NCBI RefSeq assembly: GCF_030814225.1
Contig: NZ_JAUSUR010000005.1
Span: 124,001 to 188,000 of the forward strand
Direction of reading: 5' to 3'
Origin: Breznakia pachnodae
GTDB taxonomy: Bacteria; Bacillota_I; Bacilli_A; Erysipelotrichales; Erysipelotrichaceae
Length of the DNA stretch: 64,000 nucleotides
In this document: positions 6,121-17,360 of the stretch, piece by piece
Layout of the letters: each line of letters begins with the position of its first letter
Position numbering within the stretch: position 1 is the first letter of the stretch
The notes under the pieces: model-generated
Told to the model about the DNA's origin: nothing
Databases searched by the model: none
Seen by the model: only the letters and a program-made list of their open reading frames with translations
Position numbers and translations under genes: made by a program

Positions 6121-6150
6121 AAGAATGATAATCGACTGACTATCATTCTT
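6121..6150 (-). terminator. Rho-independent terminator of the ABC-F gene
   Basis: 10-bp perfect stem (6121-6130 with 6141-6150), followed on the minus strand by TTTCTTTG, 8 bp beyond the ABC-F stop codon. Confidence 0.9.
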
Positions 6151-7696: not shown

Positions 7697-7734
7697 ATTA
7701 TTTTCCTCCATTAATTTAAGTAGAGGAATTGCAT

Positions 7735-7799
7735 ATAAAAAAGCCCGATTAAAAACCAGGCTTTACAGATTTGAAAGACAACGGTTTTTACAATTCCTC
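7735..7799 (-). promoter_or_regulatory. Terminator/antiterminator attenuator in the ABC-F leader RNA
   Basis: An intrinsic terminator (arms 7757-7764 and 7740-7747, one G-U pair, then a U-run at 7735-7742) lies between the leader peptide and the ABC-F gene. Two upstream leader segments are complementary to segments within and beyond it. 7783-7790 (TAAAAACC on the RNA) pairs with the terminator loop at 7750-7757. 7791-7799 (GAGGAATTG) pairs with 7723-7731. The pairs nest into one antiterminator of about 17 bp that excludes the terminator. Confidence 0.8.
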
Positions 7800-7916
7800 C
7801 TATTTTGGACGCACTCGTCCCATGATTAATGGAAGCTTTGTAAACGTTATTGTACGACAAAAAGCATCAAAGTAATTTATTTCATATTTTGTAAGCTCTC
7901 TCGTACAAGTTACCAT
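7800..7916 (-). CDS. 38-residue leader peptide of the ABC-F attenuator
   Basis: A short reading frame with the best ribosome site in the region, AAGGAGGTG 7 nt before ATG 7916. It starts MVTCTRELTKYEINYFDAFC and ends GRVRPK, with the stop TAG directly abutting the antiterminator segment at 7791-7799. Inferred role: a ribosome completing the peptide covers the antiterminator strand and lets the terminator form; a ribosome stalled earlier by an antibiotic leaves that strand free and allows read-through. This kind of control is established for several ABC-F and erm genes. Stall position and inducing drug cannot be read. Confidence 0.8.
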   Translation of the reverse strand: MVTCTRELTKYEINYFDAFCRTITFTKLPLIMGRVRPK

Positions 7917-7947
7917 TGTCTTTCACCTCCTTATGACAATATCCATA

Positions 7948-7956
7948 ATTATAACA
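7948..7956 (-). promoter_or_regulatory. Extended -10 promoter of the ABC-F leader
   Basis: Minus-strand TGTTATAAT, a perfect TATAAT with the TGn extension, about 20 bp before the leader-peptide ribosome site. No good -35 is seen at 17 bp, as is common for extended -10 promoters. Confidence 0.65.
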
Positions 7957-8015: not shown

Positions 8016-8055
8016 TTGCAACGTTTCGTTGCATATTGTATAGTTAAGATGCAAC
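8016..8055 (+). promoter_or_regulatory. Promoter with TGCAAC operator for the XRE regulator
   Basis: -35-like TTGCAA (8016-8021), 17-bp spacer, -10 TATAGT (8039-8044). A perfect palindrome TGCAACG-TTT-CGTTGCA (8017-8033) fills the -35 and spacer, and a third TGCAAC copy lies at 8050-8055 just after the -10. The layout suits autorepression by the downstream helix-turn-helix protein. Confidence 0.7.
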
Positions 8056-8103: not shown

Positions 8104-8640
8104 GTGATGTTAGATATAGGAGCCAATATCAAGATGTTTAGAACTGCCAACAACCTGTCACAAGAGGACTTGGCTGACAAACTTCATGTTTCCAGACAGA
8201 CAATTTCGAAATGGGAACTCAATAAAAGTACACCAAATTTGGAATACCTTTTACAACTAAAAGGAATATTTGCAATCACGTTTGATCAACTGCTTGCAGA
8301 TACCATAATTAAGGAGAATTCTATGAAAAAAGCAATCTTATTTGTACACAACTATAGGACACAGGAAATTCCAGGTCATAATTACAAACCAGTGCTTGAC
8401 TATGCAACTGGAGACCTAATAGAAAACATTACGAAAGTATATCCAGAATATGATTGGAGACCAGCAAAAAGAACAGAAATAAATGATATATTGCAAAATG
8501 AAGAAATTGATTTTGTTTTGATTACTCCAGTTATGAAATCATATCTTAGTGATGTGAAGGAAATCTATTCTGGTGAAGTCAGAGTAATGAGATCAGATGA
8601 ATATGGCAAAATTACGAAACCACCGTTTGGTAAAATTTAA
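8104..8640 (+). CDS. XRE-family regulator with a C-terminal alpha/beta domain
   Basis: 178 residues; AAAAGGAG lies 8 nt before a GTG at 8104 (an ATG follows at 8107). Residues about 5-65 are a classic XRE/Cro helix-turn-helix ('NNLSQEDLADKLHVSRQTIS', 'KWELNKSTPNLEYLLQL'). From about residue 74 a separate domain begins (MKKAILFVHNYRTQEIPG...) with alternating strands and helices, resembling a small Rossmann-like effector or phosphotransfer-type domain; I do not recognise the family. It is transcribed alone, with a tri-partite TGCAAC operator overlapping its promoter, and ends in a shared bidirectional terminator. Confidence 0.8.
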   Translation: MMLDIGANIKMFRTANNLSQEDLADKLHVSRQTISKWELNKSTPNLEYLLQLKGIFAITFDQLLADTIIKENSMKKAILFVHNYRTQEIPGHNYKPVLDYATGDLIENITKVYPEYDWRPAKRTEINDILQNEEIDFVLITPVMKSYLSDVKEIYSGEVRVMRSDEYGKITKPPFGKI

Positions 8641-17124: not shown

Positions 17125-17360
17125 GACTTTCACCTGAAATCAGGATGAAAGCCTTGAACTATCATTGTACCACCTATTTCACATACCATCATATGCTATC
17201 CTTGTAACGGAGGACACCGGCAAAACTTACTCATATCTTTTCAGTCTGCAACTCAAGAGGGATGTTCATATAGATCTTACTTTTATCAGACTCTCACTAT
17301 CTCTGACTCGCTTTGAATTTTAGATGTATATTACTGTCTCTATCAACGCTATTTGGTTAC
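17125..17360 (-). promoter_or_regulatory. T-box riboswitch upstream of ileS (isoleucine specifier)
   Basis: The leader between the promoter and ileS has T-box landmarks. A Stem I distal segment 'GAGTCAGAGATAGTGAGAG' is present. A specifier-loop region 'GAACATCCCTCTTGAGTTG' contains a candidate ATC (Ile) codon. The T-box element AGGTGGTACAATGATAG spans about 17158-17174. A long terminator hairpin (17125-17153) is followed by TTTTATTT. Uncharged tRNA-Ile would pair with specifier and T-box, favour the antiterminator and allow ileS transcription. It accounts for most of the gene-free 17057-17403 stretch. Confidence 0.9.

Follow-up and report, generated by a model that had tools for sequence, protein, structure and literature searches.

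A probable ribosome-mediated dual attenuator with a long conserved leader peptide upstream of an ABC-F gene

Expression of an ABC-F gene in a 4.3 Mb low-GC bacterial genome (G000) is very probably controlled by a ribosome-mediated dual attenuator. In the uninduced state the leader RNA would adopt a fold (P0/P1/P3) that leads to termination; a ribosome stalled in the leader would permit an antiterminator (AT) to give read-through and then a second alternative helix (AS) to free the Shine-Dalgarno (SD) sequence of the ABC-F gene. The window, i.e. the whole stretch of 64,000 nucleotides that was analyzed, is part of this genome, and the RNA switch occupies ~200 bases of its minus strand, 5' of the gene for a ribosome-protection-like ABC-F protein and between it and a divergent XRE-type regulator gene. 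Read 5' to 3' on the minus strand, the components are an extended -10 element, the leader SD, a 38-codon open reading frame, a folded core, a terminator, an anti-SD and the ABC-F SD (Table 1). At the position equivalent to that of the window promoter, homologous loci such as L016 have a consensus promoter (TTGACA-17-TAAAAT). A start of the ABC-F gene at ATG 7711, the listed ORF start, was rejected because it overlaps the SD and because orthologues begin at the later ATG 7696.

Table 1. Components of the attenuator and the gene behind it, in window coordinates
Feature	Position	Strand	Basis
Weak -35, TTCTTA	7976-7971	-	sequence
Extended -10 promoter element, TGTTATAAT	7948..7956	-	sequence, by eye
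Leader Shine-Dalgarno, AAGGAGG	7926..7932	-	sequence; in homologues an SD shortly 5' of the leader start
P0 5' strand, GAAAGACAATGGT, leader start region	7912..7924	-	cognate vs swapped test
Leader ORF, 38 codons + TAG (7802-7800), MVTCTRELTKYEINYFDAFCRTITFTKLPLIMGRVRPK	7800..7916	-	homologous leaders at 14 further loci
P1 5' strand, TTGTACGAGAGAGC, codons 3-8	7895..7908	-	folds; cognate vs swapped test
Putative arrest motif DAFCRTITFT, conserved codons 17-26	7839..7868	-	alignments; codon table
P1 3' strand, GCTTTTTGTCGTACAA, AFCRT codons	7850..7865	-	folds; cognate vs swapped test
P3 (anti-antiterminator) 5' strand, codons 24-29	7831..7847	-	cognate vs swapped test; E. gilvus helix
Hairpin P2, pause-like element, GGGACGAGTGCGTCC	7807..7821	-	conserved in three reading frames
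Shared post-stop strand, GGAGGAATTGTAAAAACC; 3' strand of P3, 5' strand of AT and AS	7783..7800	-	strand tests
P0 3' strand, ACCGTTGTCTTTC	7773..7785	-	individual folds; cognate vs swapped test
Antiterminator (AT) 3' strand, GGTTTTTA, within terminator	7750..7757	-	post:T rank 6/45
Intrinsic terminator hairpin, 11 pairs, U-tract to about 7737	7740..7764	-	terminator search vs shuffles
AS 3' strand, doubles as anti-SD, GCAATTCCTCT	7722..7732	-	post:down rank 2/45; down:mainSD rank 5/45
ABC-F Shine-Dalgarno, GGAGGAA, sequestered by anti-SD	7703..7709	-	sequence, complementarity
ABC-F gene, ATG 7696-7694, 512 aa	6158..7696	-	NF000355 match; orthologues start at same M

The post-stop strand GGAGGAATTGTAAAAACC (7800-7783) is complementary both to GGTTTTTA (7757-7750) and to CAATTCCTC (7731-7723). 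A first-pass annotation of this DNA had recognized the 38-codon leader with its strong ribosome site and the intrinsic terminator, both of which stand, and had taken the two nested complementary segments together as the antiterminator. Both segments are indeed complementary and the inner one is AT; however, and this is the main correction, the outer one (AS) is an SD-release helix that closes beyond the U-tract. With its strand at 7732-7722 situated 3' of the U-tract, AS can have no part in deciding termination; it would act after read-through, by drawing the anti-SD away from the ABC-F SD. The leader stop codon, described as abutting the antiterminator strand, does so in the window, but four homologous leaders (L015, L017, L018 and L048) stop 14-24 nt further on; in all 15 loci the stop falls at or within the shared strand region. 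Helices P0, P1 and P3 had been overlooked, as had the anti-SD and with it the translational layer at the ABC-F SD (7709-7703).

The surroundings of the switch show several further features. A perfect palindrome, TGCAACGTTTCGTTGCA, at window 8017-8033 lies between the attenuator promoter and the divergent gene, and could be an operator for the adjoining XRE-type regulator. The divergent gene (8104-8640, plus strand) encodes an N-terminal HTH_3 domain and about 110 further residues, a tail that by eye resembles a small PTS IIB-like domain. On the 3' side of the ABC-F gene, at about 6123-6150, an inverted repeat found by eye (GAATGATA...TATCATTC, with T-runs) looks like a bidirectional terminator, so that the ABC-F transcript is probably monocistronic. 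Elsewhere in the window a T-box leader (17138-17355, minus strand) scores 93.8 bits, just above the Rfam gathering score of 93.

The region 7945-7720 has a folding energy of -71.8 kcal/mol as compared to -43.9 in shuffled sequences (z -5.9), the 81 nt after the leader stop (7800-7720) give a z of -5.0 against shuffles, and the stretch contains two terminator-like sites vs. a mean of 0.0 in shuffles. The decisive evidence for the attenuator is comparative. A first homologous leader came from a DNA search of relatives (G025), and others from searches with the leader and with the ABC-F protein. Close ABC-F orthologues (E below 1e-118) are found in 12 of 273 genomes of the family, with the leader directly upstream in 12/12; occurrence in so few genomes, and in 7 of 60 genera, marks ABC-F as an accessory gene. 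Upstream of a megaplasmid ABC-F gene of Enterococcus gilvus, whose product is 42% identical, is a diverged version of the leader (FCHAIAF). When 392 genomes of the phylum were searched with the leader alignment, the same leader turned up in a sister-family genome (G046), and a search of that family gave a second, weaker case (G779). In these two loci (L054 and L081) the leader precedes an MFS transporter gene, not ABC-F; the MFS gene resembles efflux proteins and passes no curated NCBIfam subfamily cutoff. The leader ORF is open and has its own SD in all 15 loci. In L047 (G617) the leader is intact, but the ABC-F match behind it covers only query residues 2-320 and carries two TAG stops; this copy may be decaying while its attenuator persists. 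Outside these loci a scan of genome contigs with the ABC-F protein returned only a distant Tissierella ABC-F that lacks such a leader, a strict DNA pattern run on 395 genomes of the class matched three loci, all already known, and the same pattern had no match in viral contigs. Plasmids gave no close DNA match, a leader-peptide search of them returned only E. gilvus itself, and no Rfam family matched the element at its gathering score.

Pairing was assessed on 12 non-redundant loci, which remained after removal of three near-duplicates. In each the leader-to-gene region was divided by landmarks into ten segments, and each of the 45 segment pairs was scored for duplex energy with its cognate strands and with strands swapped between loci; the segments were cut after individual folds had been seen, while the all-against-all comparison itself is not selective. 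The six helices of the model occupy ranks 1-6 of 45, each at the permutation floor of p 0.0002, and the best pair outside them has p 0.016. In order these are P0 (leader start with pre-terminator, -15.2 vs. -8.8 kcal/mol, rank 1), AS (post-stop with downstream, -14.4 vs. -8.0, rank 2), P3 (codons 24-29 with post-stop, -13.4 vs. -7.4), P1 (early codons with DAFCRT, -15.4 vs. -12.6), the anti-SD helix (downstream with ABC-F SD, -11.0 vs. -8.6, rank 5) and AT (post-stop with terminator, -8.0 vs. -5.9, z -3.7, rank 6), the weakest of the six. The other 39 pairs constitute an empirical null with z from -2.3 to +2.7, and since this null is somewhat overdispersed the support for AT is good, not overwhelming. 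P3 and AT, which both prefer their cognate strands, are mutually exclusive, the post-stop strand being common to both; P3 is also kept in E. gilvus with the unrelated sequence UCAGUG:CACUGA. The downstream:ABC-F SD pair forms an SD-sequestering hairpin, which the alternative post-stop:downstream fold would relieve. Folded individually to minimum energy, the 13 ABC-F leaders all adopt a three-way architecture in which P0 encloses P1 and a P3 tipped by P2, followed by the terminator. The two MFS leaders (L054 and L081) have no P0, and there it is P1 that engages the SD and the start region of the leader. Covariation in homologous leaders, which the first-pass annotation proposed to look for, and conservation of the complementary segments, whose absence it held would refute the switch, are thus both found; with the ORF, complementary segments, terminator and anti-SD all conserved with covariation, its ribosome-controlled attenuator is strongly supported.

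These elements suggest the following sequence of events, in which P3, AT and AS would compete for the one post-stop strand. In an uninduced or untranslated leader P0 would enclose P1 and P3, with P3 holding the post-stop strand so that the terminator forms; once RNA polymerase has passed, P0 would also close the start site of the leader itself and so enforce termination without leader translation. A ribosome that finishes the leader would cover the post-stop strand at the stop codon, likely favoring termination as well. A ribosome stalled inside the leader, most likely with DAFCRT[IV]TFT in or near the active site or tunnel, would cover codons 24-29, with loss of P3. Such a stall would leave the post-stop strand free, since at least about 56 nt separate it from the F codon and a ribosome footprint does not reach that far. 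The first partner of the freed strand would be the arm and loop of the terminator (AT), giving read-through, and the second the downstream CAATTCCTC (AS), releasing the ABC-F SD. The AT helix is no more stable than the terminator, and the antiterminator must therefore win kinetically. The inducer may be an antibiotic, a reading favored by analogy to vmlR, cplR and msrD and by the fact that an MFS efflux-type gene has the leader too.

The GGGACRAGUGCG element (hairpin P2) is conserved ~40 nt 3' of DAFCRT. Its reading frame differs among homologues, with all three (0, 1 and 2) represented, and selection thus acts on it as nucleic acid. In 14 of the 15 loci GGGAC follows the F codon of DAFCRT at 39-41 nt in spite of the differing frame; in E. 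gilvus the spacing is 35 nt. The element forms a short hairpin whose pairing is kept in E. gilvus, as read from the sequences, by a partner exchange of GAC/GUC to GAG/CUC. Reviews describe G-10 Y-1 G+1 as the signature of elemental pausing (PMC7797061, PMC12288461), and by inspection the element agrees with it in 14 of 15 loci. On this basis it may be an RNA polymerase pause site, with a candidate pause at GGGACGAGTGCG and a predicted RNA 3' end at C7811; a structural hinge is the other role that it might have. The string GGGACRAGTGCGYC has 14 matches in 268 genomes, ten of them in these leaders and four in unrelated contexts, the latter no more than a reversed-pattern control and hence at chance level.

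The N-termini of the leaders do not align among homologues, and what they have in common is the motif D-A-F-C-R-T-[IV]-x-F-T, with variations, in frame at about codons 15-28. That a leader of such length could hold a new arrest motif, as had been suggested for the window sequence, gains support from this in-frame conservation in leaders of 35-45 codons. The strings DAFCRT, CRTITF and CRTVTF were not found in a relevant context in the literature searched. It is a real though somewhat less than even possibility that DAFCRT[IV]xFT represents a drug-dependent arrest peptide not described before, part of a portable ~200 nt attenuator in which the fixed ~40 nt spacing would set the ribosome against a paused RNA polymerase, and that resistance genes of both the ABC-F and the MFS type have acquired this module. 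A conserved internal motif in a family of long leaders points to sequence-specific arrest, and hence possibly to a new peptide-drug-ribosome combination, and the presence of such a leader would predict inducible resistance genes among unassigned ABC-F and MFS genes.

The same attenuator might also need no specific arrest peptide and be induced by any ribosome that is slow or stalled on the leader, with the DAFCRT codons being kept only for RNA pairing with the 5' strand of P1 and with GGGACRAGUGCG. These codons are nearly invariant at synonymous sites too (codon table), which shows that the RNA is under selection as well; P1 covaries, and RNAalifold pairs UUUGUC with GACRAG, i.e. the DAFCRT codons with GGGACRAGUGCG. 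However, this last pairing has no cognate preference (p 0.17-0.21) and no covariation support, and the partner strand of P1 varies freely whereas the DAFCRT strand does not. Moreover, in the MFS leader L054 the nucleotides differ (GCA TGG TGT CAC ACT) but the residues are similar (AWCHT), which favors selection on the peptide as well; the other MFS leader, L081, is more diverged (AWRRT). Induction by non-specific stalling thus appears rather unlikely. Still far less probable is a leader that senses charged-tRNA shortage with no drug involved, as in trp-type attenuation, to which its layout is similar and to which there is a weak, non-significant resemblance in the Rfam Trp_leader model (16 bits vs. 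41, E 0.87); this was rejected since there is no run of one codon, the invariant residues being only single ones, since the motif Cys is replaced by Ser (L045/L046) or Arg (L081), and since the genes controlled are ABC-F and MFS rather than biosynthetic. That the ORF, long for a leader and conserved in its middle, is a small functional protein whose transcript the terminator merely ends is most improbable and was rejected, because the N-termini are unalignable, the C-terminal codons are read in three frames (GRVRP, GTSAS, RDECV) and the ORF is linked by covarying helices both to the terminator and to the SD downstream.

The ABC-F protein behind the proposed drug-sensing attenuator scores 425 bits against the NF000355 ribo_prot_ABC_F model (cutoff 380), the sole ABC-F NCBIfam model that it passes; it lies far below the curated NCBIfam cutoffs of the OptrA, PoxtA, Msr, Lsa, Vga, Sal and CplR subfamily models. 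In a tree in which OptrA, PoxtA, MsrE and LsaE are the only resistance references, and in which some branches are long and their placement unsure, it clades with the E. gilvus protein apart from these four. Its interdomain linker is short (125 residues). By sequence it is outside the known resistance subfamilies, and its context makes it likely that it confers resistance.

The logic of the switch matches that of Bacillus subtilis vmlR, whose leader consists of a uORF, an anti-antiterminator, an antiterminator and a terminator; an SD-sequestering stem there is undone by the same switch, and a pause hairpin separates the uORF stem from the terminator (PMC9226507). The two share this four-part logic, a pause-like hairpin and control of an ABC-F gene; by eye, the NusG motif TTNTTT is not conserved in the present leaders. 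However, the vmlR uORF has three codons (MIN) and stalls at initiation (PMC9226507), as compared to 38 codons with a conserved internal motif here, and P0 and P1 are additional. The uORFs of cplR, vmlR2 and lsaA, which likewise precede ABC-F genes, are MR[I/M], MK[L/Q] and MAGN, respectively (PMC10201436); with vmlR these make up a group of 3-4 codon uORFs thought to stall at or near initiation, and leaders of 35-45 codons fall outside it. In cplR transcriptional and translational attenuation are also combined, but there the terminator stem itself sequesters the SD (PMC10201436), whereas here a separate anti-SD does so. In msrD/mefA an antibiotic-stalled leader peptide relieves an intrinsic terminator, and one region serves both an ABC-F gene and an MFS pump by way of leaders of 6-8 codons (MsrDL, MYLIFM; MefAL, MTASMRLR; PMC10314930). 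These peptides are unrelated to DAFCRT[IV]xFT, and here homologous leaders precede ABC-F or MFS genes in different genomes. The RVR of the window leader resembles the +x+ macrolide motif but is lost in leaders where the frame differs. New in comparison to the known systems are the long leader, the DAFCRT[IV]xFT motif, the GGGACRAGUGCG element read in three frames at a fixed distance from it, and the use of one leader family by two gene families.
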